IMG/VR virus record: IMGVR_UViG_3300030328_000966
Location: 1 to 44,097 of that record
Source of the DNA: a virus
Length of the DNA: 44,097 nucleotides
Strand: one strand, 5' to 3'
Both the position numbers and the translations under genes were made by a program. The notes under the pieces are model-generated. The model did not search any database. It saw nothing but the letters and a program-made list of their open reading frames with translations, and was not told the DNA's origin. Below, in pieces: positions 1,764 to 38,700 of the stretch. Every line of letters begins with the position of its first letter. The stretch's first letter is position 1.

Positions 1764-2149
1764 TGCTAGGTAAAATATTTTCAGGTGGTGCAGCAGACCT
1801 AGTAAAAGGTGTTGGAAATGTAATAGACAATCTACATACTAGTACTGAAGAAAAATTAGCTGCAGAACAAAAAATTAAAGAATTAGTTGCCAACTATCAA
1901 GTGGAAATGGAAAAAAATATCACTAACCGTTGGCAAGCTGACATGAATTCAGATTCATGGTTAAGTAAAAATGTAAGACCATTAGTATTAATATTTTTAG
2001 TAGTGTGTACTATGTTACTTATATTTATAGATGCTGGACAATTAAAATTCAACGTCAAAGACTCTTATGTTGATCTTCTACAGTTAACACTTATAACTGT
2101 GATTGGCGCTTACTTTGGCGGTAGAAGTTTCGAAAAATCAAAAAAATAA
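1763..2149 (+). CDS. Holin, GTA_holin_3TM-like
   Basis: A 128-residue protein with an amphipathic N-terminus (Gly/Ala-rich 1-22), a charged helix (28-60), the conserved-looking 'NRWQADMNSDSWLSKNVRPL' junction at 55-74, then two hydrophobic segments at about 72-91 and 104-121 and a basic tail. This 'RW..D...DSWL...VRP' junction leading into membrane helices is characteristic of the holin family first described in gene-transfer agents. Holins form pores in the inner membrane and time lysis. No endolysin is recognisable in the window, so the partner must lie elsewhere or be unrecognised. The start overlaps the previous stop (TAATG). Confidence 0.8.
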   Translation: MLGKIFSGGAADLVKGVGNVIDNLHTSTEEKLAAEQKIKELVANYQVEMEKNITNRWQADMNSDSWLSKNVRPLVLIFLVVCTMLLIFIDAGQLKFNVKDSYVDLLQLTLITVIGAYFGGRSFEKSKK

Positions 2150-2156
2150 AAATTAA

Positions 2157-2840
2157 ATGGCTAGATTAGGAAATTATCCTGTAGATACAACTCTATCAAG
2201 GACGGATAAGTTTTTGGGTACCAATGCTGATGGTACTACGAGAAACTTTACCGTAGATGGAGTTCGTACTTTTTTTAGTCAAGACAGTGCTGCTGGAGCT
2301 GCAGATGAGTTAAATTATAAATTCAAAGACTCTACAACAAACACTATTGGTATCATGTCAACTGACGGTGTTACTGCATTCTCATCAATAAGCACAATTA
2401 AGTTACACGAAAAAGCAAATGGACTAGAAACATCTATTTCTAACTTTTTTAGTGAGTTTGTAAACAAAGATATAGTTATTATAGACGTTGAAAATTTAAA
2501 TAAATACGGTGTCTATACTTGCACAGCTGTTGCTGCTGATAGCGGTAACTCTGGGCTTTACGATTTAACTTTGTCATATAGAAGCGGTAATGGTTCCCTT
2601 GTCGCTAATCAATTTTATTCAATTTTATTGTATTCTGGAGCGCAAGACAAAAGTCATACACATACACAAAATGTGAGCTCAGCTAACTGGGTTATAACTC
2701 ATAACCTAAATAAATTTCCAACTGTTACTGTCAAGCTATCAACTGGCGTAATAGGGACTGCTGCGGTTACTTACCAAAGCGAAAATCAATTAACCGTAAG
2801 CTTGTCCGGTGCAAATACTGGAACTGCATACTTAAACTAA
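2157..2840 (+). CDS. Fibre/adhesin-type virion protein
   Basis: A 227-residue protein. The N-terminus ('YPVDTTLSRTDKFLGTNADG') resembles the 'GT.ADG.T.NFTV' heads of marine phage fibre proteins. The middle carries a small beta domain (about 75-160). The last 60 residues contain a 'W.ITHNLNKFPTVTV' strand followed by 'V.Y.....LTVSLSGANTGTAYLN', a C-terminal beta module also present in altered form at the end of the 841-residue neighbour. It starts seven bases after the holin and leads directly into two longer fibre genes, so all are probably one transcript. It may be a short fibre or a fibre tip. No catalytic residues are evident. Confidence 0.7.
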   Translation: MARLGNYPVDTTLSRTDKFLGTNADGTTRNFTVDGVRTFFSQDSAAGAADELNYKFKDSTTNTIGIMSTDGVTAFSSISTIKLHEKANGLETSISNFFSEFVNKDIVIIDVENLNKYGVYTCTAVAADSGNSGLYDLTLSYRSGNGSLVANQFYSILLYSGAQDKSHTHTQNVSSANWVITHNLNKFPTVTVKLSTGVIGTAAVTYQSENQLTVSLSGANTGTAYLN

Positions 2841-2862
2841 CAAAATTTAAAATAAAAACAAA

Positions 2863-5388
2863 ATGGCAATAGAATTTTTAAACCATATTAACTTAAATGA
2901 CTCGCAGTTGCAAAATGCAAAGTTGCACGTAACAAGTTCTGCTCCAACAGCTGCTGCGGGACAGATTTATGTTGATAGTGGAGATAGTAATAAATTAAAA
3001 TATCACAACGGAACAGAGTTTTTAACTCTAGGTACTGCTACCGGTGATATAACCAGCGTAACAATAACAACAGACTCTGGTGGTGGTAGCGCGGCATCAG
3101 ATACTTCTGGTGATGCAGCTTTTTCCATACTTGGAGGTGATGGTATAGGCGTAACAAACAGTGGTGCAACAATTACAGCGGCTATAACAGCTGCACAAAC
3201 AACAATAACATCCGTATATAATTCTGGCTTAGTAGTAGGTTATGGTGCTAGTCACGCTAACATAAACTTTGGAACAGATAATCAAATTGATTTTGATATT
3301 GATGGTACAGCTCAAATAAGACTAACAGATGGTGTCTTAGCTCCTGTAACTGATGATGATATTGATTTAGGTTCAAGCTCAAAGCAATTTAAAAATGGTT
3401 ATTTTGATGGTACATTAGAAGCTGATGCTATAACAGTTGGTGGTACTGCTTTAAATACAGTTATTGCAGGAGTAACAGTTACAAATGCAACAACAGCAGC
3501 AGTAGCAACAGCAGTAACAATTACAGATAATGAATCTACAAATGAAAATAATGCTCTTATATTTACAGCTGGTGGTGATGTAGACGGTGGTAATCTTGGT
3601 TTAGAATCAGATGGTACTCTTACTTATAACCCTTCAACAGGAAAAGTAACTGCTACAGGATTTATAGGAACCTTAACAGGTAATGTTACTGGTAACGCAT
3701 CAGGATCATCTGGATCTTGTACTGGTAACGCTGCAACTGCTACTGCACTTGAATCAGCTAGAAACATAAACGGAGTTGCTTTCGATGGTACTGGTAACAT
3801 TACAGTTACAGCTGCTGGTTCTACTTTATCAGACACAGTTACAGTTGCAAAAGGTGGTACTGGAGCAACTTCACTTAACTCAAACGGTGTTTTAGTTGGT
3901 AATGGTACAAGCGCAATAACAAGTTCTACTAACTTATCTTTTGATGATACTGATGTAACTTTAGCTAGTACTGGTAAAATGCAATTTAGAGATAGTAATT
4001 CTTACATACACTCTAACGCGGCAAATGATATAGAGGTTGTAGGTACTACTATAACTTTAGACGCTGGTAGTGATATTCAACTAGAAGGTAACACAACTGT
4101 TACTGGTAACTTTTCTGTCTCAGGTACTTTAAATGTTGATGGTACTACTACAACTATTGATTCAACCACAGTTGCAATAGCTGATAGTATGTTAAAATTA
4201 GCTAAAGATCAAGGCACAAGCGCTGATGATGTTGACTTTGGTTTTTACGGTCAATACGGTGTTGGAGGTACTGCAAAATATGCGGGTATATTTAGAGATG
4301 TAAGTGCTTCTGGTGATCCTTTTGTATTCTTTGATAGTTTACAAGCTGAGCCTGGCGCTACAGTAAACACTAGTGGTACTGGTTATGATTTAGCAGATAT
4401 ATCAGCTGGTGCAATTACTGCTGCGGATGGTTTTGTAGGAGACATTGAAGGTAATTTAACTGGTACGGTAGCAACCGCAACACAAGGAACAATTGATCAC
4501 GACACTTTAGCAAACTTTGTAGCTAACGAACACATAGATCACTCTTCTGTAAGCATAACTGCTGGTGATGGTTTAACTGGTGGTGGTACAATTGCTTCTA
4601 CTAGAACAGTTGCTGTAGGTGCTGGAACTGGTATAACTGTAAATGCAAATGATGTAGCAGTAGCAGCAGCACAAACGAGTATAACATCTATTTACGCTAC
4701 AGATTTAATCCTTGGAGAAGATTCTCAAACAGCAATTGATTTTGGAACTGCTAATGAAATTGATTTCAAAGTAGATAATGCGGCAAGACTAACGTTAACA
4801 GCTTCTGCGTTATATCCTGTAACTGATAATCAAATAGATTTAGGTACATCTTCATTAGAATTTAAAGATGCATATTTTGATGGTACTGTAACTTCTGATG
4901 CTTTTGCAGGTCCTTTAACTGGTAATGTTACGGGTAATGTTTCTGGATCTTCAGGTTCATGTACAGGTAATGCAGCAACTGCTACGGCATTAGAATCAGC
5001 AAGAAATATTGGTGGTGTAAGTTTTGACGGTACTGGTAATATTAATCTACCAGGTGTAAATACTTCAGGTAACCAAGATACTTCTGGAAACGCTGCAACC
5101 GCTACGATATTAGCAGCCGGTGCAATTGGTGCTGTTAAAGTTTATGAACTAGACAATAGTACTAGTGGTGTAGCCGCAGATCAAGCAGGTAGTGACTCAA
5201 CAGTATTTACTATTACTCACGGTATGGGTGCTAGTAGATTTTACAAGGTTGAAGTTGTGAAAGACAGCGGTAATTATGACACTGTGTATACTGATGTAAC
5301 TAGACCATCTGATACTACTATTGTAATAACGTTTGGATCTGCCGTTGCTAACGGTGCGTACAGAGCAATGATTACAAGAATGGCATAA
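2863..5388 (+). CDS. Long repeat-containing tail fibre protein
   Basis: 841 residues, low complexity (Gly/Thr/Ser/Ala/Asn/Asp), no long hydrophobic segment. The protein begins MAIEFLN, shared with the next fibre gene. Two modules occur twice: an 'ITS.Y...L..G....INFGT.N.IDF' unit ending in 'YFDGT' (DNA about 3195-3440 and 4671-4905), and a 'LTGNVTGN.SGSSGSCTGN' unit followed by 'ALESARNI.GV.FDGTGNI' (3673-3800 and 4915-5044). The 'SARNINGV.FDG' signature is widespread in phage tail fibres. The C-terminal 80 residues ('TITHGMGASRFYKVEVVKD...TIVITFGSAVANGAYRAMI') form a separate beta domain probably exposed for receptor contact. Trimeric, shaft-like architecture is inferred. Confidence 0.8.
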   Translation: MAIEFLNHINLNDSQLQNAKLHVTSSAPTAAAGQIYVDSGDSNKLKYHNGTEFLTLGTATGDITSVTITTDSGGGSAASDTSGDAAFSILGGDGIGVTNSGATITAAITAAQTTITSVYNSGLVVGYGASHANINFGTDNQIDFDIDGTAQIRLTDGVLAPVTDDDIDLGSSSKQFKNGYFDGTLEADAITVGGTALNTVIAGVTVTNATTAAVATAVTITDNESTNENNALIFTAGGDVDGGNLGLESDGTLTYNPSTGKVTATGFIGTLTGNVTGNASGSSGSCTGNAATATALESARNINGVAFDGTGNITVTAAGSTLSDTVTVAKGGTGATSLNSNGVLVGNGTSAITSSTNLSFDDTDVTLASTGKMQFRDSNSYIHSNAANDIEVVGTTITLDAGSDIQLEGNTTVTGNFSVSGTLNVDGTTTTIDSTTVAIADSMLKLAKDQGTSADDVDFGFYGQYGVGGTAKYAGIFRDVSASGDPFVFFDSLQAEPGATVNTSGTGYDLADISAGAITAADGFVGDIEGNLTGTVATATQGTIDHDTLANFVANEHIDHSSVSITAGDGLTGGGTIASTRTVAVGAGTGITVNANDVAVAAAQTSITSIYATDLILGEDSQTAIDFGTANEIDFKVDNAARLTLTASALYPVTDNQIDLGTSSLEFKDAYFDGTVTSDAFAGPLTGNVTGNVSGSSGSCTGNAATATALESARNIGGVSFDGTGNINLPGVNTSGNQDTSGNAATATILAAGAIGAVKVYELDNSTSGVAADQAGSDSTVFTITHGMGASRFYKVEVVKDSGNYDTVYTDVTRPSDTTIVITFGSAVANGAYRAMITRMA
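3195..3440. repeat. Fibre module 1, copy 1 (second copy about 4671-4905)
   Basis: Encodes a unit running from 'ITSVYNSGL' through 'NFGTDNQIDFDIDG' and 'DDDIDLGSSSKQFKNGYFDG'. The second copy has 'ITSIYATDL', 'DFGTANEIDFKVDN' and 'DNQIDLGTSSLEFKDAYFDG'. Protein similarity is clear while the bases differ at many third positions, so the copies are old and kept by selection on the protein. Confidence 0.75.
3673..3800. repeat. Fibre module 2, copy 1 (second copy about 4915-5044)
   Basis: Both copies encode LTGNVTGN, SGSSGSCTGNAATATALE and SARNI followed by FDGTGNI with very few amino-acid changes, but numerous synonymous changes. In the second occurrence the module directly follows module 1, whereas in the first a stretch of about 230 bases separates them. 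Confidence 0.8.
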
Positions 5389-5411
5389 TAATTAAAATAA
5401 AATAAAATTAA

Positions 5412-7040
5412 ATGGCGATACAGTTTTTAAATGCAGTTGATGTTACTGGCGAGGTACAAGGTACTTCGCTAGACATCAATGGTGCTGCTGATATATCTGG
5501 TGTTTTAACACAAGGTGGTCATATTGAAATGGCTTCTGCTAAAAGAATAAGGTGGGGAGCTGGAGATGCTATGATTGCAGAAGGTATATCTGAAAATTAT
5601 GCTTTAGAGTTTTCAACATATAACGGTAGTTCTATGACAGAGGCTTTAAGGTTGAGTGGTGATAATTCTGCAACTTTTACAGGGTCTCTTACTATACCTG
5701 AATACATAGTTCACTCTGGTGATACTAATACTTATTTTGGTTTTAGCGCTGCAGATACATTTAAACTTCATGTTGGTGGCGAAGATGTTCTTAGAGTTAA
5801 TGGCGGCGCAACCACTGACGAAGCAGCGGTGACAATACTTTGTGGAGGTGGTACTAACGCAACTAACATAGGTTTGTTATTAAATGGTAACACAAATGGT
5901 GAGACTTTAAAGGTCAAAATGATGAACCCAAATGACAGTGGTAGTGTCACGGGTGCTGGTATACTTTCTTATGAACCAGATGGCGATACATTTAACATAG
6001 GCCAAAGCACAACTCACAACAACATGGCTATGTCTATTGATAACAGTGAAAATGTTACTTTTGCTGCTAATATAGGCGTAGGCGGAACAGTGCTTGGTAC
6101 CTCTGCTAAATTTGGTAGAGACGCAGATAATCTTATAGATTTTGCATCTACAGATAATCAAATAAGATTTAGAGTTAACGGAGGTGACGAAGCTAATATG
6201 ACTAATGCTTTTTTCTATCCTCACTCTAACGATGGTATGGCACTTGGTCAAGCGGCTACCGCATGGTCTGACCTTTTCTTGGCATCGGGTGCTGTTATTG
6301 GGTTTAATAATGGTGATGTTACGCTAACACATAGCTCTAATACTTTAACAGTTGCTGGTGGTACTCTTGCTACGGCTGCTTTGACTGCTACAACCGGTAC
6401 TTTTTCTGGCAATATTACTGCTAATGGTGATATTATTGGTGATGACGGTACTAATATAACTAATATAAACCGTATTGAATCAGACTCGTTCGCAGCAGAT
6501 GCTGATAACACAACTACAATTAATATGGGTGCTACTCAGATTGAATGTTTAGTTGCAGACACTGATATATTTCAAGTCGGCGAGGATTCATTTACTTTTG
6601 ATCCTGCAATAAAAACATCTATACATAAACGATTGTTTGCTAAAACGACAAATGTTGATGGTAACTTTGATGGTGATGTAGTTTTTTTTGGTAGTACAAC
6701 ATCAATGACTGCTGGTAAATTATATTATTATAATTCAAGTGGTAACTGGGCTTTGGCTGATGCTGATGCCGCTTCAACCTCTACTGGTTTATTAGGCGTA
6801 GCTTTGGGAACAGCCTCAGACACAAATGGTATGCTACTTAGAGGTATGGTCACTGTAAATACTATTGGAGGTACTGAAGCAGTTGGAGATATATTATATG
6901 TAGCTTTAGCTGCTGGTGATGTTACTAAAACAGTTCCTTCAGGTACTGGTGATATAGTAAGAGTTGTGGGATATTGTTTAGACGCTAATAACGGTCAAAT
7001 ATGGTTTAATCCTGACGGTGCGTTTGTAGAGATTGCGTAA
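5412..7040 (+). CDS. Tail fibre protein with beta-rich C-terminal head
   Basis: 542 residues opening with MAIQFLN, the same heptad as the 841-residue fibre apart from E to Q, so both probably dock to the virion in the same way. The body repeats fibre phrases such as 'DADNLIDFASTDNQIRFRV' and 'TLTVAGGTLATAALTATTG'. From about residue 400 a distinct domain ('GDVVFFGSTTSMTAGKLYYY', 'STGLLGVALGTASDTNGMLL', 'GDIVRVVGYCLD...QIWFNPDG') resembles a C-terminal head I remember in aquatic phage fibres. The stop overlaps the start of the methyltransferase (TAATG), tying expression of the two together. A function in adsorption is inferred. Confidence 0.75.
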   Translation: MAIQFLNAVDVTGEVQGTSLDINGAADISGVLTQGGHIEMASAKRIRWGAGDAMIAEGISENYALEFSTYNGSSMTEALRLSGDNSATFTGSLTIPEYIVHSGDTNTYFGFSAADTFKLHVGGEDVLRVNGGATTDEAAVTILCGGGTNATNIGLLLNGNTNGETLKVKMMNPNDSGSVTGAGILSYEPDGDTFNIGQSTTHNNMAMSIDNSENVTFAANIGVGGTVLGTSAKFGRDADNLIDFASTDNQIRFRVNGGDEANMTNAFFYPHSNDGMALGQAATAWSDLFLASGAVIGFNNGDVTLTHSSNTLTVAGGTLATAALTATTGTFSGNITANGDIIGDDGTNITNINRIESDSFAADADNTTTINMGATQIECLVADTDIFQVGEDSFTFDPAIKTSIHKRLFAKTTNVDGNFDGDVVFFGSTTSMTAGKLYYYNSSGNWALADADAASTSTGLLGVALGTASDTNGMLLRGMVTVNTIGGTEAVGDILYVALAAGDVTKTVPSGTGDIVRVVGYCLDANNGQIWFNPDGAFVEIA

Positions 7041-7621
7041 TGAGTTATAAAGATAAAACATTAATATTTGAATCTAATAAGATTTATTACAACGATGCTA
7101 ATAATAGTATTGAAATGGAAGTAATGATGGACTGGGAAGATGCTGTTATGAAAAAGTCTGCTGATTATGTTTGTGAAAATGGAGGAGATATATTAGAGAT
7201 AGGATTTGGTATGGGTATAGCCGCAAACTATATACAGGCAAATTCAATAAACTCTCATACTATAGTTGAAAACCACCCACAAATAATAGAAAAAGCAAAA
7301 GCTTGGGCTGCTGACAAATCTAACGTAACTATTATAGAAGACGATTGGAATACAGTTAAAGATAAAAGAAGAACAATTTGTTTAGCTACTTATGATGGTA
7401 TATTCTACGATACATTTGGGGATGAAAATATGGGTAATTTTAAAAGCTCTTTAGCTAATTTAGCTAATTCAGGTTGTAAAGTTACATGGTGGAACAGTCT
7501 TGCAAGTGAAAATAACTATTATAATATCACTGGTGTTACTTACGAGGCTATTACAGTAAACCCTCCACCTAATTGTTATTTTAATCACACTACTTATTAT
7601 CTACCTAAAAAAGAGTTTTAA
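7040..7621 (+). CDS. SAM-dependent N-methyltransferase, GAMT/RMT2-like
   Basis: 193 residues with a near-complete guanidinoacetate/arginine N-methyltransferase pattern: 'MDWEDAVM' (E33, matching the substrate-binding Glu of mammalian GAMT in 'RWETPYM'), SAM motif I 'ILEIGFGMGIAA' (51-62), motif II 'HTIVENHP' (73-80), a conserved Trp in 'EDDWNTV', and 'YDGIFYDTFGD' (118-128, with D124 matching the catalytic Asp of 'DGILYDTY'). These enzymes methylate guanidino nitrogens, either of guanidinoacetate or of protein arginine (delta-N position, yeast Rmt2). The gene overlaps the upstream fibre stop and abuts the downstream adhesin ATG, so the likely context is fibre production. Whether it modifies a virion arginine, a host protein or a metabolite is unknown. 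Confidence 0.85.
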   Translation: MSYKDKTLIFESNKIYYNDANNSIEMEVMMDWEDAVMKKSADYVCENGGDILEIGFGMGIAANYIQANSINSHTIVENHPQIIEKAKAWAADKSNVTIIEDDWNTVKDKRRTICLATYDGIFYDTFGDENMGNFKSSLANLANSGCKVTWWNSLASENNYYNITGVTYEAITVNPPPNCYFNHTTYYLPKKEF

Positions 7622-8311
7622 ATGGGAACGTTAGCATCAAATAGAAAAGGATATATACAAGGACCATCGGCGAGTAGTTATTCTGATTCTTATCAAGCCT
7701 CTGGTAATGGTACTGCTTATGATGCCCAAAGTAGTAATGTTCCCTCAGCAATACAATACTTTAAATCAACAGGTAGAGGTGGTGGTACATATAGATTTAC
7801 AAGAACATTTATACATTTTGATACATCAGGAATAACAGGTGGATCTAGTTTTCAACTTGTTGTTACTTCAGTTGCGGGTGATTCTAGTGATGGTAATTAC
7901 AACATAATTGCTTGCAACCACAACGCGGGTAGTGGTAACGGTGGTGAGCTTGCAAATGATGATTTTGACAATGCAATTAAAGGTACTAAATGGTCTTCTA
8001 GCACCGCGTGGCCATCAAGTGGATCGGTAACTATTAGTTTAAATGCTGCTGCTGCTACTCAAATCATAAATAACGATGACTTTAACGTAGCTTTACTTTT
8101 AAAAATTGATGCTGATGAAGACGCAGAAGATCCGTTAGAGTCAAGTGGTAGTGTAAGTGACGGTATAGCTTTTGGTAGTGCTATAAACTTAACATATACA
8201 GATCCAGCTAGTGGATATACGAATAAAGTAAACAATATAGAGCCGGAGAATATAGGTAAAGTAAATACTATTGCGACAGCGAGTATAGGTAAGATAAATA
8301 CGGTAGGTTAA
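7622..8311 (+). CDS. Beta-sandwich virion/adhesin protein with C-terminal repeats
   Basis: 229 residues, starting immediately after the methyltransferase stop. Residues about 20-200 look like a single beta-sandwich ('YRFTRTFIHFDTSGI', 'VTISLNAAAATQI', 'FNVALLLKID'), reminiscent of the DNRLRE-like domains that stiffen bacterial surface adhesins. The last 30 residues consist of a short repeat ('NKVNNIEPENIG', 'KVNTIATASIG', 'KINTVG'), a tail type I remember at the ends of marine phage structural proteins. No catalytic motif or signal peptide is visible, and the location inside the fibre cluster argues for a virion protein. The assignment to structure is moderately sure, the precise role unknown. 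Confidence 0.65.
   Translation: MGTLASNRKGYIQGPSASSYSDSYQASGNGTAYDAQSSNVPSAIQYFKSTGRGGGTYRFTRTFIHFDTSGITGGSSFQLVVTSVAGDSSDGNYNIIACNHNAGSGNGGELANDDFDNAIKGTKWSSSTAWPSSGSVTISLNAAAATQIINNDDFNVALLLKIDADEDAEDPLESSGSVSDGIAFGSAINLTYTDPASGYTNKVNNIEPENIGKVNTIATASIGKINTVG
8221..8308. repeat. Short in-frame C-terminal peptide repeat
   Basis: Three successive units of about 6-12 residues based on 'K-[VI]-N-x-[IV]-x-x-x-x-I-G' (KVNNIEPENIG, KVNTIATASIG, KINTVG) end the protein. At the DNA level the units share 'ataggtaa(a/g)taaata'-like words. The regular spacing suggests a beta-helix tip or a docking tail. Confidence 0.6.
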
Positions 8312-8415
8312 TTAATAATTTCTTAATTCACCGTTTATAAAAGATGATTAAAACAATAACGCTTTAAAACAATCATAAAGTGTGTAATAATAATAAAAAG
8401 AAAATATAAAAAATT
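8312..8415. other. Intergenic region, longest gap in the window
   Basis: 104 A/T-rich bases. A weak hairpin can be drawn: 'acgcttta' (8359-8366) against 'taaagtgt' (8376-8383) with one G-T pair and a 9-base loop. No T-tract follows, so it is not a typical terminator. 'tttataaaag' at about 8334-8343 could serve as a -10-like element for a late promoter ahead of the 8416 gene, but nothing firm supports it. Confidence 0.35.
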
Positions 8416-9045
8416 ATGGCAACAGGAAACTCACAAGAAGTAGCATATGGTTTTGGACAACTAGGTAGTGCTCATGTAAAAACAGCAACCCCACTAGTAC
8501 CACCAAAAGGTATGGTTATAGTGGCTATACAATTTTTAGCTGCTAATACTTTAAGTAAATTAGTATCTGAAAGCGATAGAGCTGGTCTACCAAACTATAT
8601 AGATACAGAGACAGAAGGAAACATGAACTATAATGGTTATCATGAATCAAATGTTACAAATGGAACTTATGCAGCTGGAGCTGCTATTACAGTAACTGCT
8701 AATACAGATATACAAATTGGCGATCCAGTATTATTAATAACTCAAGCATCAACAAAAGATCTTGGTATTACTATTGATTCTGAAACACCAGTACCTAACT
8801 ATGAAAAATACAATAGTTATGTAAAAGTAGAAAGCGTTAATGCCGCTGGAACTTCTATAACACTTTCACATCAAATTACTCCAAGTAGTCAATCATTAGT
8901 ATTTTTAGGTGGAGCTAATGGCGCTGGTGGTAACGATGCTTCTAGTATTTTATACCCACAAGGTATGATTATGTATGGTAGATGGACAGAGGTTACTCCA
9001 GCTGCTGATGCTGACGGAGGTTTAATCTGTTATTTCGGTTACTAA
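8416..9045 (+). CDS. Virion structural protein (putative)
   Basis: A 209-residue protein beginning MATGNSQEVAYGFGQLGS and ending 'GGLICYFGY', with no signal peptide. The middle is beta-rich: 'AAGAAITVTANTDIQIGDPV', 'VKVESVNAAGTSITLSH'. The segment about 80-160 looks like a small beta-barrel of the 'IQ.GD.VL......V.....G.SITLS' type that recurs inside several other virion proteins of this window. Its stop overlaps the ATG of the 688-residue protein (TAATG), so the two are translationally coupled. It may be a surface or decoration protein. No family is recognised with confidence. Confidence 0.55.
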   Translation: MATGNSQEVAYGFGQLGSAHVKTATPLVPPKGMVIVAIQFLAANTLSKLVSESDRAGLPNYIDTETEGNMNYNGYHESNVTNGTYAAGAAITVTANTDIQIGDPVLLITQASTKDLGITIDSETPVPNYEKYNSYVKVESVNAAGTSITLSHQITPSSQSLVFLGGANGAGGNDASSILYPQGMIMYGRWTEVTPAADADGGLICYFGY

Positions 9046-11111
9046 TGACTATACAAGGAATGTCTCAGGGTTTAGCGTTTAGTAATATGTCATATTACAT
9101 AAGCGAAGAAATACCTAATATTGCTATTTGTACAACGCCACCGTTAAACGCTGAAAACACACAAGGTATATACAATACTACTTTTGATATGGGTACTGCT
9201 AGTGGTGCTGCTATAATAACTTTTGAAATTGGAGATGGTTATAGAGATCAACCAACAACCGCTCCAATTGTAGGTGGATTAGGTGATAAGTTAAGTTGGG
9301 AATATGCTGGTACTTATAACTCTGAGTATTCTTGCTGCCAAATGGGAGAGGCGCAACCTGGTGTAAACTATGTAAATGATCCAGAAGCAGCTACTAGATA
9401 TAGATTAATGGGAAGAGGTTATGCTCGTGGGTTTTTATCATCTGGATATAATCACAACGGTACTGGAAGTAAAACTGCTAATAACAATTATAGCTTATAT
9501 GGCAATGGGTCTGTTCCTTTAAGTCCAGTAACGGGTAGTAAATTAATAGCTAGTCCAGGAACATGGACACAACCTTATCTTTTAGATCCAGCAGGTGGTT
9601 TTAGAACTCAAAGTTATAATATTCCTAGCGAAAGTGATTCTACTGATGGTAGCGGAATGGGTAATGGAGGTATATATCCAGCTACAAGAAACGGTTATAT
9701 AGCTAGTGCTAATCCTACAACACCTCAAAATGGTGTTGGACTACAACAAATAGAACATGGTTCTTTTGTGTCTTATGAAGGTACAAATCCTTACACTATG
9801 ACAGCTAGTACAGGTTTACCGACTTATGACTATATGAATCCAAGTGGGACGTATGTAAAAAGAAATTTAGGTAGTGGAGCTTTAACTGATGACGTATTAG
9901 ATTATTGTGGTCCTTATACTGGTCACGATGAAGTTGAAACTTTAGACAAGTGGAATAACAAGGCTTACCCTGGTTCTTCAGCTGTAACTTTAGATAATGG
10001 AAGGTTTGCAACAAGACAAGCTATGATGGTTGTTCCTATTGCAGGTGGTGGATTAGTAAGATGTAGATTAGAGGCACCATTTAAAGGAACTTGGGCTGCT
10101 GTAAAAATATTTTGCCCAATAACACTTCCAAAATGGGGTGGTGCAAATAATAAGGGTGGCATAGCAAGTGTTTATAGTGATGCTGATTTACACACGGCTG
10201 TTCAAATTACTGGTACTACAGGTATATTAGCTTCTCAAACAAATAGTGGTTCAACTGCTGTGGTGTTAACAGCTTCAAACTCAGATATAAAAGTAAATCA
10301 ATTAGTTACAGGTACTAACGTTGCGGCAGGCACTATTGTTCAAGCTGTTAGTGGTGTTAACGTAACTCTTTCTATAGCTGCAAGTGGTAATGTTACCAGT
10401 GGTTCTACTTTAACTTTTCATAAGTCTGAAATTAGAAGATTATTTGATAATGAAAATAATCGCTTAACAAATAATAATCTAAACCCACAGTATGCAATGG
10501 ACCCGACAGATACGACAGATACTAGCGACTTTTTTACTAAGTTTGCTAGCGTTGTTAAATGGAAACCATACTCGACTTCAACACAAGCCTTGTCTCATGA
10601 CTTTGCTGATCCAGCCAACACCGCTCATTTCCCTAATGCAGCTAATAAAACGTTTTACCATGTGCCAAGTCAAAACTCTATATATAGAGAGCAAGGTTAT
10701 GATGGGTTTAAAGCTGGTGGAAGTATAGGTGAAAATTCAGCAGGTGGAGGTCCTGAAAGTAATCACGGTGAACACGTATTAGGTGCTCATGGATCAAGAC
10801 CCTTAGCTTGGAACACTTTAAATAGTACGGATGAGTTAGCACACCACGGTGTTGTTAACGAAGGTGATTGGGTATTTACAAAAAGCAATGGTGCTAGAGC
10901 ATCAAGATTACGCGCAAGAGGAATATTAGATATGACAGTATATGCAGACAACGACTACGATACAGTTGGAGGTTGGTATGCAATGAAAATTGGTTCAAAC
11001 CAATACGCTGTACAAGTAGGATCTCTGGACTACAGCAGAGGAGAAGTAACTGTAGATGTGGTAAGTGGAACAGTACCAAGAAATGGTGTTGTTAGAACCG
11101 TTACTACTTAA
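9045..11111 (+). CDS. Large virion structural protein
   Basis: 688 residues, rich in Gly/Asn/Ser/Thr/Tyr with many predicted beta strands and loops, no membrane segment. A compact module at about residues 385-465 ('GILASQTNSGSTAVVLTASN', 'IKVNQLVTGTNVAAGTIVQA', 'NVTLSIAASGNVTSGSTLTF') is the classic 'S..V.L....I..G..V.G..I..GT.V' beta insertion found in many marine phage virion proteins, and a related one sits in the 485-residue protein at 28787. The C-terminus ('GSLDYSRGEVTVDVVSGTVP') is again beta. It may be a capsid-surface or tail adhesion protein. It is translated from an overlapping start after the 209-residue protein. Confidence 0.55.
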   Translation: MTIQGMSQGLAFSNMSYYISEEIPNIAICTTPPLNAENTQGIYNTTFDMGTASGAAIITFEIGDGYRDQPTTAPIVGGLGDKLSWEYAGTYNSEYSCCQMGEAQPGVNYVNDPEAATRYRLMGRGYARGFLSSGYNHNGTGSKTANNNYSLYGNGSVPLSPVTGSKLIASPGTWTQPYLLDPAGGFRTQSYNIPSESDSTDGSGMGNGGIYPATRNGYIASANPTTPQNGVGLQQIEHGSFVSYEGTNPYTMTASTGLPTYDYMNPSGTYVKRNLGSGALTDDVLDYCGPYTGHDEVETLDKWNNKAYPGSSAVTLDNGRFATRQAMMVVPIAGGGLVRCRLEAPFKGTWAAVKIFCPITLPKWGGANNKGGIASVYSDADLHTAVQITGTTGILASQTNSGSTAVVLTASNSDIKVNQLVTGTNVAAGTIVQAVSGVNVTLSIAASGNVTSGSTLTFHKSEIRRLFDNENNRLTNNNLNPQYAMDPTDTTDTSDFFTKFASVVKWKPYSTSTQALSHDFADPANTAHFPNAANKTFYHVPSQNSIYREQGYDGFKAGGSIGENSAGGGPESNHGEHVLGAHGSRPLAWNTLNSTDELAHHGVVNEGDWVFTKSNGARASRLRARGILDMTVYADNDYDTVGGWYAMKIGSNQYAVQVGSLDYSRGEVTVDVVSGTVPRNGVVRTVTT

Positions 11112-28786: not shown

Positions 28787-30244
28787 ATGTCAGTAACAGT
28801 AACTAGAGCAAACATAACAGATCCAAACATAACAGAGACTACTATATCTAACTATATAACACCGTCAACTAATTGGACTTCTTCTAGACACTCAGGGGTT
28901 GTTTTGGGAGGACAAAGTCATTTGATAGCTGAGTATACTATTGCTGCAAGTGCTGGAAATTCTTTAGCCCCAAATGGTAGAGGTGGTAACGGTATAAATG
29001 TTTGGTATAACAGAAACTCTGCTAATTCTGCTTGGGAACCTTATTATAATTGGTCTATAACAGACACTTACTATACTACTGAGGGTAACACTGGTTATAT
29101 ACAATCATCAAATTTAAAAATATATTATACACCACCAGTTGGAGTGCCTGGTTTAGATCCAGACCCTGTATCAGCAGAAGGAGGTTTTAGTTCAAATTTG
29201 CATGATATAAGATTTACTTATACTGAAAGAGCTATTGTTGCAATAACTAATAGATTAACATCAGTCAATATAGCAGACGCAACAGTAAGTCCGTCTTCAC
29301 CTAACGAAATAGCTTTAAGCGCTAATGCTACTGGAACTGTTGCTTTAACTGTTAGAAAATTAAATTCCGATAAAGACGATTACACACATAGTTATAATTT
29401 TTCAACACAAGCTTGGACTGCAAAGGCCAGTGGTTTGCAATCTTATACAGTAACTTTTACAGAAGATACAGTTAAAAGTGGTGAAAGAATAAGTGTAATT
29501 ATGCCATCAACAGACGAGTCTGCTACTTATAGTATTGTTATGTCGGCTGGTACTTTAGCTTTAGACTCTTCAATTCCAGACGCTATAAACGAATTAAATT
29601 TTGAAACTGTACAATCTGTTAGAAACACGTTTGGCCCTGGGACAAAAACAAACGTAACTAATGTTACTGGTACTATAACTACTGGGTATAATCCTGAGAT
29701 GGCGTATACAAATAGAGTTTATCCATTTACATTTGTTTATACAAAAAGTAGTGGAACAATGACTCTTACTCGTCAACCACTAGCATCTGATGTTACTGGG
29801 CATAGTCAAATAACGACTGTTACAGGAACTGTAAATTCAGGGGTATCTACAATTATAACTGCTGATACCGAGGGTATTAAAGCTGGTATGTATGTAAAAG
29901 ATGGTAGCACTGAAAGTGGGGGTGGTGAATCTCTAGATAGTGACACTAGAATACCTGCAAACACAGTTGTTAACACTATTAGCGCTGATACTAGCTTTAC
30001 AATAAAAAGCTCTGTTACTGGTAGTGCTGTGGTTACAACAGCTGCTATTAACGGTGAACCTGGGGGTGATCAAACAGTTCAATTATCATCTGACTGGGAG
30101 TTTTCATTTTCAGATATGGTTGCAACTATAAACGGTGGTGCAACAGCTGTTACAGTAACTGGTAATCTAACGGTTTTAAGATACGGAAGATCAGCTCCTG
30201 ATGGAGACATAAAATTACAACCTAACTTTATAACAATATCATAG
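28787..30244 (+). CDS. Beta-rich virion protein behind the nozzle gene
   Basis: 485 residues with no signal peptide and many beta strands ('TGTVALTVRKLNSD', 'SYTVTFTEDTVKSGERISVI', 'YPFTFVYTKSSGTMTLTRQP'). It contains an insertion module at about 29811-30060 ('TVTGTVNSGVSTIITADTEG', 'IKAGMYVKDG', 'DTRIPANTVVNTISADTSFT') of the same type as in the 688-residue protein. It is separated by ten bases from the nozzle gene and one base from the next, so the three are co-expressed. A nozzle accessory or fibre-adaptor role is plausible. I do not recognise a specific family. Confidence 0.55.
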   Translation: MSVTVTRANITDPNITETTISNYITPSTNWTSSRHSGVVLGGQSHLIAEYTIAASAGNSLAPNGRGGNGINVWYNRNSANSAWEPYYNWSITDTYYTTEGNTGYIQSSNLKIYYTPPVGVPGLDPDPVSAEGGFSSNLHDIRFTYTERAIVAITNRLTSVNIADATVSPSSPNEIALSANATGTVALTVRKLNSDKDDYTHSYNFSTQAWTAKASGLQSYTVTFTEDTVKSGERISVIMPSTDESATYSIVMSAGTLALDSSIPDAINELNFETVQSVRNTFGPGTKTNVTNVTGTITTGYNPEMAYTNRVYPFTFVYTKSSGTMTLTRQPLASDVTGHSQITTVTGTVNSGVSTIITADTEGIKAGMYVKDGSTESGGGESLDSDTRIPANTVVNTISADTSFTIKSSVTGSAVVTTAAINGEPGGDQTVQLSSDWEFSFSDMVATINGGATAVTVTGNLTVLRYGRSAPDGDIKLQPNFITIS

Positions 30245-32752: not shown

Positions 32753-35700
32753 ATGAGTGAATTAGAGGCTATTCTTAAAAATTTAATGGAACAAAACCCT
32801 AATGTTACACAAGAAACTGTAGATGGTGTAATAAAAGAGTATGATGAGCAAAACAAAAAGCTTAGTTTTATACCTGACACTATTGTTGCGGAAACAACTC
32901 GTAATACAGATAGTAATATAGTTATACCTGAAATTATACAAGGGCAAGATGAAACATCTGAAGATGGGTCTGATCCCTTTGAAATACTAGAGAAAGAAGA
33001 AAGAAAAGAAGCAAGAATACAAAGAGATTTATCAAGAATGAACCTTCAGGTTATTCCAGGTCAAGGTGTAGTTGATCTAAATCAGGGAAAAGAGGATTTA
33101 AAAGAGATAATAAAAAACAATCCTGTAGGATCTACAAAACATCTAGAAGCTACAAAAAGGTTAAATGAAGTTAGAAAACAAGATTATAATAATAGTTTTT
33201 CAACACAAGATTATAAGACTGTTGAAGAAATTATAAAAAATGCAGAGACTAGCGGTCAAATAGATCTTACTGCTCCAACAAAAAAAGACGAACTTGATAA
33301 GCTAGTGGCAGAAAGAGGTGATTATACTGTTAGTAATTACATGGGCCAAAGTGTTTATACTTTTGCAGATGGAACCACTATTAACGACGCAATGCTACCT
33401 TCAGATGACCCTGATGCAAAAACTGACCATTTAGTAAATTATGAAGGCATTAGAGGTCTTGACGCTCAACAAAAACAAAGAATTAAAGATTTTACCACAG
33501 TAGGACCTGCTGGTCACAGCAAACTTGATATTTATAGAAAAGCTATTGCAAACATGAAGATTGACAAGCCAGTTGCTGGATATGGTCAATTTGAAGAGCG
33601 TGATGTTAATCTAAGTGAGTTTGAAGACTGGCAACTATTAGATGGTTTAGACTTTCAACAAATACAGCAATTTGCTGGTATTAGTTATGAAAAAGGTGCT
33701 TTTGGAAGAGGAGATGATGTTATCGAAAAAGATTCTTTTCAAAAGAAAGCCCATATAGATAAGCTAGCAGGAAAAAAATATAGACTAGAAAACGAGATTA
33801 TTAACGAGGAGCGTAATGATGTGCTTGATGATATTGATACTCATAATGAAAATACTGAAAATGTTTTATTAAAAGGTGAAGGATTAAAATCAAGAGTAGA
33901 AAAATCTAACACTGTCATTGCTCCAGTAGCAGAAAAATATGAAAAAGCTGTTGCAGATATAGAGGCTTCAAATACCAATGTTAAAAAGTTAGAGGAAGAG
34001 TTAAATAGCATTCCAAGACCTACAAAAAAAGGTTTATATTCACACCCAGCACACGTAAGTTCTTACAACAAAGCCGTTACTAATTATCAAGCAGCGGTTA
34101 CAAATCACAATTCCCTTATTACAAAAAACAAACCTTTGTTTGATGAGTACGGTTCTTTAATAAAAGAACAAGAAGCATTAATAGCAGAGTCAGATCAATA
34201 TAACGAAGAGTTAGGTAGTCTTAATAGAACTCAAGAAGATCTTAATAATAAACTAGGTGAACTAGAAATAAAAAGAAAAGCTTCACAAGACAGATACGGA
34301 TTCACGGTTGCCGATGGTATATTAAAAAATGATAAAGAAAGGTTTACAAATATAAAAGCATACGAAAACTGGAGAAAAACAAACTTAATAGAAAACAGTA
34401 TATTTGACAAAGACGCTTGGCTTTCTTTTGGGCAAGGAATGGGGAAAACATGGGGTAAAATGTACACTGGTGGACAACTGTTCGCGTTAAGAGGTCTTGA
34501 CGCTATTACTGGTGGTGCTTTTAGTAGAGGTGATCAATACACGAATTTAGATTACATGCAAGATATGTATGAAAAATTTTCAAGCTACGATCTTGCGGGC
34601 GTGGCAACAGATGAGGATTACGGAGAAGGTGGGCCGTCAGGAATTAATTATGCTACTAAAGTAGTAGCTGAAGGACTTCCGTTTATGTTAGCTATAGCTA
34701 ATGGACCCGGTCTTGTGTCAGGCACATCGAAACTAGCTAGTGGTATAAACATGTCTACTACAGGTTTTCAATTAACGTCTATGGACAATGTTATTGAGGG
34801 TGAAAAAATGGGTTTAAGCGAAACTCAAGCAACGTTATATGGTGGTATTATAGGTACAACTATTGGTTTAACTCAGTTAATAATGCCTGATTCTCAAATT
34901 TTACAAGGTACTGGTATAAACGAAATTGCAAAAAAAGGTTTAGCAGATATATTTAAAAGAGGTCTTAGTAAGCAGGCAACTAAATTTGCTGTTGGTAATT
35001 GGTTTAAAAGAAACGTTGGGGAAATGTTTGAGGAACAGGTTGAAGCTGGTATGGAGCATTTAGCAAAAAAAGCTTTTAACTTATCTCATGAAAGTGATTT
35101 TTTAAGCTGGAAAACACATCAAAAATTAATTGCTGATACTTGGACACTTACTGGTATAACTGGTCTTAGTGGTTCTACAGCAGACTTTAACAATTTTAGA
35201 AGCAATGCTTTTACACAGTTAAAAGGAGATGTTAACCCAATGATAACTCAAATAAACGAGCAAGTTGGAGCAATTCAAAAAAAGATTAACAAAGCCGAAA
35301 GAATCAAGGATGGGGCAGCTATTAAAAAATATACTGATTTAAAAAACGATTTACTTAAGTCAAAGGAATATGTTACTAATTTTAAAAACGCTTTAAACGT
35401 TGCTCCAGAAAATGTATCAGACCAACAGCTAGAAGATCTTACTGAAAAAATGAGGTTGCTTGAGTTAAAAAAGAATCAAGACCCTGCTTTTCATGCTGGT
35501 ATAGACTTACAGATTAAAAACATTAATGAAAAAATAGAAAATTCTGTAGTTGAACAAACAGCTAAAGAAACAAACGACAAACTTTATAAACAAACATTAG
35601 CAACTGTTACAACACTAGCCGAAGGCCAAGGTGACAAAGTTCAAGAGTTTGAAAACGACAAAGAAGTAAATAAATATTTAGAGGATAATGGTTTAAAATC

Positions 35701-38700
35701 TAAGTTTGAAAAAACTACATATGGTGGTTTTGTAGATATAGCTGCTAAAGATAGTGATGGTAATATTATAAAAGACGAAAATGGTAAAACAAAATTTGTA
35801 AAAACATTAATAATAAACAAACAAGCTTCTCAAAAAGGTGAAGGTGTTAATGTTGCATCACATGAATTTTTACATCGAGTTTTACAAACTACTTTTGCTC
35901 AAAAAGACGCTGATGGCAAACCGATGCTTGATGAAAACGGTGATATAATTATTGATAAAAAAGCTGCTATTGGTATTGGTCAATCATTAGGTAAATGGAT
36001 AAGCGAAATACAAGGAGATGATTTTTCAAATAGTAAATTGCTAGAAAGACTTCAAACATCTTATTCTGGAGAGTTAAACAACGTGCAAGCCCAAGAAGTT
36101 TTAACATTGTTATCAGACTCTATAGTTACAGGAGACTTAAAGTTTGAAGAAAATGTATTTACCAAACTAGGAGATGTAATGAGAAGAGGTTTGCAAGCCG
36201 CGGGATTTGCAGACATTAAATTTAACACAGCTAAAGATGTTTATAATTTTGTTAAAGACTACAACGCATCTATAGCGGCTGGTGGTTTAAATCAAGCTCA
36301 GCAAAAATTAATGAAAGAAGGTGCTAAAATAGGTGGTAAAATAGCACAAACAATAGACAGTGATACTATAGACCAATTAGCAAAAGAAGACGATTTACAG
36401 GAAAAATTAAATTTGTTAAAAGAAAAAAATATTGATCCAGACTCTGTAGATGGTAAAGCTTTATTAGCTTCTAAAGCAAGTGACGTTGCAGGTTTATTAA
36501 GTAAATTTGATGGGCCAAAAGATATGATTTCTAGAACTCTTATGCAAACCAAAGATGGTCAACAAGTCATGGATTTAAAAAACAACAATGGAGATTATGT
36601 TAAAAATCCATTTGTGAGATCTGAGTTTGGTCAAGAAATAGCACCAATAACAGAAACTATTACTAAAAGATTATTTGATCCTATACCTGAAAACTTAAGA
36701 TCTGGTGTTACTAGAGCTGAGTTTATGAATGAACTTACATCGATGGCTGCTGGTTTAGTTGAAACTGAATACGATGCTAGTAAACAAGATATTGATAAGT
36801 TTATAAGTAATAGATTAAATTTAAGAGCAAATAAATTAGCTAGTGACTTAGGTATAGAATCAACTGTTGAAGAAGGTGGTTTAGGAGCGGCTGTTGGTCT
36901 AGATCAAGCAGCAGAGTTAACAGCTGAAGAAACTGGACCTATAAATGAAAACACACCAGCATCTGTATTAGTTGATAGATTAGCTACAACTGAACAAAAA
37001 CAAAATATAGAAAAAGCTATTCAATCTAAAATAAAAGGTAATACTATAGAGGTTGAACCAGGTAAGTTTACAGATATATCTAACTTAAACTATAAAACTT
37101 TAAAAAATCTAGTAGCACCTGAGGTTGCTAGTATGTTTGGTATTGAGGCTGTTGAAAATTATACATCACCTACTAAAACGTTAAAAAATGATGACGTTGT
37201 TAGAGCTAGAATGTTTATAGGTAAAAATGCAGATATAATATATAACTCGCTACCAAAAGGTGTTACAGCGTCAGGAACAGCAACTGGATTAAAACAAGTA
37301 ATAGCTAAAAACTTTTATACAAAAAGTGATACTAGAGTTAAGTATGATCCTAAAGAAGGTGGCGCTGGTATATTTCCTCAGATAAAAAATAAAATGACAG
37401 GTAAAGAGTTTGCCGCTGTATTTGGTTATGAAAAAGGTAAACTTACAAGTGTTAAAGGTCAAAATCCAGCTACACTAATATCAGGATTAATGGACGAGGT
37501 TGGTAAAACTATAACTAACCAAACAGTAAGACAACAGCTAGATAAAATGAATACAGCTGGTGACAAAGAAGTTGCTGCTCGTATAAAATTACTAGGAGAT
37601 GGTAAGTCAGATGTTATGTTTAGTCAAGCAGCTTTATCAAAACTATCACCAGAACAACATATTACGTTTTTAGACAAGGCAACTAATATAAACGCTAAAA
37701 TGATTAACGCTGCTGATGGTAACATGACAAACGTTTTAAATACTCACTTTGCTGATGACATTAAAAATGGTACTTATGATATTGGTAAGCAATCAACAGA
37801 ACAACTTATAAATAAAGTAGGTAAAACTTTACAAGGTATATACGATGGTATGACTGATGGTAAAAGTTTACCACCAGACTTTGTTTTTGATGGCAATAAA
37901 ATTGCCGACATGGTTATAGATCAGTTTGTAAATGAAAACATTGAGAATGAGCTTAAAAGCTACGAATCAATAGCTGGTGAAAAAATTCAAGGATTGACTA
38001 CTGTAGAGGGTATTATATCAGCTAGAAATGCTGCTGTAAAGCTTAGTAATAGATTTGCAAAAAAGAAAGGTAAGGCGTGGGTTAAGAAATTTATAGCACC
38101 TGGTTTAAGTGCTTCTGCTAGAGCAGGTAGGGGTGAGTTTGTGTTTAAGCCTGGTACAATGGAGTATAAAATTGACAAAGCTAAACGAAAGTCAAGAAAT
38201 AGATTTGGGTTAGGTAATGCAGCTGATATAGGCGCTTTATTAGGTGTTACTGATATTAAAATTACTAATAGTTACAACACTGGAGATGTTAAAGCTCACG
38301 AAGGTAAATTAACAGTTATACCAAGCCAAAGCAATTTAACTAATATTGTAAAAGAAAACCAAGAAGCTAACCAAGCTTATAGAGATTTTGTTGCAGAGTT
38401 AAAAGATATGTATGACAATAAAGAAATATCTAAAAGTGATGTTGTTGCTTTATTACAAGCTATGAACTCTAACCCTAGAGGCTTAACAAGAACAGCTGCT
38501 ATATTAGATTTTATTCCAGATGGTAAATTTGATGGTAAGCTTAGACTCGAACACATGACGCCAGCCTTACAAGTAAACTTAAACGCCTTAAACCATATTT
38601 TAAACGGCACTCCTGAAACAGATCAAAACTTTAAAGATATAATGGATGGTTACAAAGCAGCTTATTTGCCTATTAAGTATGACAACATGGTTAACAAGTT

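Follow-up and report, generated by a model that had tools for sequence, protein, structure and literature searches.

The window, a virus record of 44,097 bases, encodes within its tail-fibre cluster an enzyme with the fold of guanidinoacetate methyltransferase (GAMT). Its catalytic positions are conserved, its gene is tightly linked to adhesin genes, and in these adhesins an arginine flanked by small residues co-varies with the gene. We propose that the enzyme is a phage-encoded protein arginine N-methyltransferase which modifies a glycine-flanked arginine of the adjacent virion adhesin. The probability of this reading is put at about 0.65, because the adhesins of loci L151-L154 are exceptions and because the function is deduced from sequence only. 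The features of the window that bear on the proposal are listed in Table 1.

Table 1. Features of the fibre cluster of the window
Feature	Position	Strand	Identified by
Tail-fibre protein of the same cluster, 841 aa	2863..5388	+	PHROG tail fiber, E 2e-22
Fibre-type protein, 542 aa, directly upstream of the enzyme	5412..7040	+	
Fibre C-terminal domain, ~120-140 aa	6588..7037	+	Sequence conservation among fibre genes
GAMT-fold SAM-dependent methyltransferase, 193 aa	7040..7621	+	Profile search, structure model, residue alignment
Putative CBM96-like beta-sandwich adhesin ('DN' family), 229 aa, proposed substrate	7622..8311	+	Foldseek
Adhesin hairpin loop, sequence STGRGGGT, containing the candidate methylation site R52 (codon 7775-7777)	7766..7789	+	

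The enzyme and its relatives

The open reading frame of the enzyme begins with ATG and ends with TAA, and all GAMT landmarks listed in the preliminary description (E33 after W32, IGFGMGI, IVENHP, and YDGIFYDT with D124) are present in its product. The reported overlap with the stop of the upstream fibre gene and the abutment to an adhesin gene were confirmed at both joints: one base is common to the enzyme ATG and the fibre stop (TAATG), and the enzyme TAA is followed at once by the ATG of the adhesin gene (a 0-base joint). No model of Pfam, PHROGs or NCBIfam claims the protein above threshold. A single-sequence phmmer search of the PDB gave significant matches to GAMT alone (E 2e-11; all others E > 0.5), and a family profile of 74 rows matched GAMT at E 3e-25; because of these matches a chance reading frame can be dismissed. 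The AlphaFold model of the enzyme (pLDDT 94) had rat GAMT with guanidinoacetate as its top Foldseek match (E 2e-12). In VIA-align it was superimposed on GAMT over 182 residues with a Z of 22.8, 2.2 A and 25% identity, while the next family reached Z 15.2, and no PRMT was among the best structural matches listed for the model by either program. HMMER pairs E33 with E46 and D124 with D135 of the human enzyme (rat E45 and D134), and both the guanidino-binding Glu and the catalytic Asp are kept; D134 acts as the proton acceptor of the GAMT reaction (PMC12471008). The product is a class I methyltransferase nearest to GAMT, and with the fold match, the profile match and the guanidino-handling residues the family call made earlier is sustained.

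The likeness to GAMT (PDB 1xcj, 3orh, 1khh) extends over nearly the full-length fold and includes the Trp-Glu motif and the GFGM SAM loop. The phage enzyme differs in the loop after TWWN and in the absence of ~17 N-terminal residues, residue 1 of the model lying on GAMT 16-18. RMT2, a fungal protein arginine delta-N-methyltransferase, also has a GAMT-like catalytic domain, which acts on protein arginine. Compared by description, the phage enzyme resembles RMT2 in this domain and is without its extra N-terminal domain, the model aligning to GAMT over residues 1-193.

Relatives with 43-89% identity were found in 27 further viral contigs, and a profile scan recovered 435 related stretches. All 127 distinct relatives compared have W32, E33, M58, E77, D124, W151, N152 and Y180. 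A loss of E33 or D124 in relatives, named in the preliminary description as a finding that would speak against its proposal, was looked for in this set, and every member has both residues. The SAM-motif and catalytic residues E53, G55, G57, E77, E33 and D124 are invariant down to relatives of ~40% identity. The five residues R110-C114 are an insertion present in just three of the 127. In the annotated-phage collection the enzyme had a single match, 47% identical, in the uncultured phage LR745206 of 635 kb, and 7622-type adhesins (homologues of the adhesin encoded from position 7622) and BACON adhesins were looked for in that collection and not found.

Linkage across phage loci

The order fibre, enzyme, adhesin recurs in about 90-100 phage loci of IMG/VR with otherwise different genomes; the contigs are metagenomic and often fragments. 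The standard arrangement, in which a fibre with the C-terminal domain is followed by the enzyme and a 7622-type adhesin, was found at 88 of 132 unique enzyme loci. A 7622-type adhesin lies directly downstream of 106 of the 132 unique enzymes, and a BACON adhesin follows ~18 others, in agreement with the tie to the fibre and adhesin cluster drawn from the window before. On the downstream side of the enzyme, 124 of 130 gaps are within 20 nt, as are 118 of 125 on the upstream side. The flanks outside the fibre, enzyme and adhesin genes differ between loci (terminase, portal, sheath, holin), and therefore the cassette moves between phage backgrounds. The ~18 loci whose enzymes form a diverged clade mostly have an S74-type fibre upstream and a BACON-domain protein downstream, the BACON domain of which scores above the Pfam cut-off. 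At L253, L271 and L277 the gene order is fibre, adhesin, enzyme. On some contigs resembling those of large phages (L028, 240-4332; L271, 4601-7536), two glycosyltransferase-like genes follow the enzyme, replacing the adhesin or standing after it.

At enzyme-negative loci the fibre and adhesin genes abut directly, and the enzyme was not found elsewhere in these records, several of which are fragments. As judged from the loci compared, the cassette can do without the enzyme gene, and the neighbouring adhesin differs according to whether that gene is there.

The window terminase matched a contig from Manatee Spring at 63% and Flavobacterium elemo phages at ~45%; Cellulophaga phages were also matched, and the matches are Bacteroidota podovirus-type phages. 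Two adjacent small ORFs at 208-612 and 643-1014 of the window (134 and 123 aa) are paralogue-like. A single ORF of 2973 aa occupies 32753-41674, and stretches homologous to it precede the fibre-enzyme cassette at L006, L009 and L022.

Glycine-flanked arginines of the neighbouring adhesins

The adhesin of the window carries repeated KVNTIATA-type motifs at its end. By Foldseek it matched the chondroitin-sulfate-binding CBM 8wab (E 3e-5, TM 0.66 by target length), and one homologue matched Pfam CBM96 at E 0.007, which is under the family cut-off. The R52 loop (STGRGGGT) is positioned between predicted strands 39-49 and 56-67, and R52 is the sole Gly-rich Arg site in the fibre cluster of this window. 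The only other GRGG of the window (APNGRGGNGI, residue 65) is in a 485-aa ORF of the structural region at 28787-30244, which has no PHROG match.

Among the 7622-type adhesins, the position +2 after R52 is G, A, S or T in 110 of 110 enzyme-positive members, most having GRGG, versus K in 12, Q in 1 and A/G in 7 of the 20 enzyme-negative members. The long form of the loop was likewise found in 108/110 with the enzyme versus 4/20 without it; in the other 16 the loop is 2-3 residues shorter, often with R-T-K. Of the independent pairs, 2.7 of 3 go in the same direction (sign test, p about 0.25). R52 itself is conserved throughout the family, the enzyme-negative adhesins included, so that this Arg also serves structure or binding independently of the enzyme. 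A strict rule by which GRGGG would occur only with the enzyme was rejected for this family, since it is broken by L151-L154, where GRGGGTHK is kept without the enzyme, and R52 is universal.

The BACON-domain adhesins are unrelated to the 7622 type and have a poly-Gly tail at the C-terminus. At enzyme-positive loci this tail holds one RG (GGGGGGGRGNAAP, GGGRGEP, GGNGRGFNP and similar). At L330, L332, L336, L340 and L342 the enzyme is absent and the fibre and BACON genes abut; the tails here are GGGGRP, GGGGMP, GGGGKGGGGEP, GGGKDGGEGLDP and GGGGRP. After clustering at 90%, RG was present in the tail of 16/16 enzyme-positive versus 0/5 enzyme-negative clusters (Fisher 5e-5), and L328, with the C-terminus of an enzyme just upstream, is a 17th case. 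On a BACON tree built without the tail, with changes of the enzyme label counted on starred branches, the enzyme changes four times and RG four times. All four independent pairs go in the same direction (sign test p 0.125, where four pairs cannot get below 0.05).

A neighbour unrelated to both adhesin types was seen at L182, where the gene preceding the enzyme encodes a Thr/Ser-rich repeat protein ending in GGGGGGGGCGRGCQ. The enzyme version of this locus has 350 aa and is flanked by two long Thr/Ser-rich repeat proteins (STSKSTTTTYNTST...) at 1778-3946 and 5022-7175. No clear Gly-Arg neighbour is present at the enzyme loci L183, L030 and L028. A Gly-rich Arg occurs in 67% of the proteins directly downstream of the enzyme versus 7% of the others from the same loci, and in 83/119 versus 0/212 after length matching, frequencies that are descriptive because the rows are related and not independent.

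The Gly-Arg trait was defined after inspection of the data, and the independent changes are few. It is conceivable, though unlikely, that the co-variation reflects lineage and linkage of adhesin subtypes, with the real substrate elsewhere (host surface, defence protein, glycan or lipid amine); the GRGGG of L151-L154 and the universal R52 fit such an explanation. However, the pattern is repeated in the unrelated 7622-type, BACON and L182 neighbours, RG is replaced by K, M or RP where the enzyme is absent, and the catalytic residues suit a guanidinium substrate. For a host surface or defence protein as target, which had been suggested in the preliminary description, nothing was found in support.

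Candidate substrates and proposed function

The natural substrate of GAMT is a small molecule, which counts against a protein target, and the nearest solved relatives of the phage enzyme are all GAMT. It could accordingly be a genuine small-molecule guanidino methyltransferase, acting on guanidinoacetate or a related host metabolite, which reached the fibre cluster by hitch-hiking; this is also considered improbable. Cellular relatives with 25-40% identity are spread over many phyla, and two of them are found beside genes of AGAT/SxtG-family amidinotransferases, the partner expected for small-molecule chemistry. At L033 the GAMT-like gene (7920-8585) is near the amidinotransferase gene (9578-10687), and at L052 (7896-8579) it adjoins it (8584-9690) and is preceded by a PKS-aminotransferase gene, layouts suggesting bacterial guanidino-metabolite pathways which employ GAMT relatives. 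The phage enzymes, in contrast, form a separate, supported group on a long branch of a quick tree in which long branches are present. No amidinotransferase was seen beside them, nor among those ORFs of the window that were scanned. The near-constant linkage to adhesins over unrelated phages and the Gly-Arg co-variation would also be left unexplained. Compared with GAMT, the phage enzyme stands with virion adhesins and has a protein as its proposed substrate. The nearest chromosomal relative, L032, falls inside the phage group on the same tree, and neither an adhesin nor an amidinotransferase was recognised around it.

Still less probable is that the enzyme methylates the C-terminal domain of the fibre and not the adhesin. 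In favour of it, this domain is kept in most fibre genes preceding the enzyme, both neighbours being of the standard type at 88 of 132 loci, and one of its arginines, R145 when the last 170 aa are numbered, is 87% conserved. The same Arg is, however, equally present in the enzyme-lacking fibres of L121 and L124-L131, and as a specific target signal it was rejected. Moreover, the enzyme-positive loci L085, L114 and L024 have a different fibre C-terminus, yet the Gly-Arg adhesin is retained. The domain also occurs without the enzyme in fibres of Flavobacterium phage immuto, followed by other structural genes, and is a mobile module. Of the virion arginine methylation supposed in the preliminary description, the part concerning the fibres is not favoured, since their Arg also occurs where the enzyme is absent, and the co-variation points to the Gly-flanked Arg of the adhesin (R52) as the candidate site. 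That a former methyltransferase has lost its activity and now serves in fibre assembly or as a structural component would agree with the position of its gene, strictly within the fibre cluster and flanked by structural genes on both sides, but is hardly credible, as a structural part would not need the invariant SAM-motif and catalytic residues.

As a protein arginine methyltransferase, the enzyme would place the methyl group of SAM on an Arg within a flexible run of small residues, namely R52 of the GRGGG loop in the adhesin of the window and the GRG of the poly-Gly tail in the BACON adhesins. E33 and D124 would grip and polarise the guanidinium like in GAMT, and the glycines may leave the Arg free to enter the deep GAMT pocket. 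The mark would be made ahead of virion assembly and could tune the binding or assembly of the adhesin; the likely product is an adhesin arginine carrying one methyl group, or perhaps two, in an omega or delta position. As the predicted fold of the adhesin resembles that of CBMs, it may be conjectured that methylation adjusts the binding of glycans, or that it protects or orders the loop. RGG/GAR sequences are the classic context for arginine methylation by eukaryotic PRMTs (PMC8007824). The phage enzyme would share with PRMTs the Gly-flanked Arg target and the chemistry, and differs from them as a small single-domain protein of the GAMT type.

Methylation of Lys and Arg in phage proteins, free virions included, was first described for Cellulophaga phages in 2026; no methyltransferase gene is known from those phages (PMC13288928). 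In phages phi18:1, phi38:1 and phi18:4 of that study, methyl-Lys and methyl-Arg were found on structural proteins and host enzymes are presumed, whereas here a phage gene is present and the methylation is proposed from sequence. The preliminary description held that such a virion modification was not known to be described; this no longer applies to methylation of phage proteins as such, and may still apply to the phage-encoded enzyme, since no phage-encoded protein arginine methyltransferase was found in the open-access full-text literature. Nothing relevant was found there either on RMT2/GAMT-like phage enzymes or on BACON or glycine-rich phage adhesins.

With slightly less assurance than for the enzyme of the window, we favour the broader view of a writer-substrate cassette, in which a GAMT-fold enzyme has the methylation of a Gly-flanked Arg, at the tip or in a loop of the adjacent adhesin, as its specific task, an arrangement common to unrelated adhesin families and many marine phages. 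It would be the first case in which a phage supplies the enzyme for methylating an arginine of an attachment protein. If true, these phages bring their own enzyme to modify chemically the protein by which contact with the host is first made, and the fold familiar from creatine synthesis has been adapted to protein arginine methylation. It would also provide a phage-encoded source for the virion methylation that in related Bacteroidota phages was reported without a phage enzyme.
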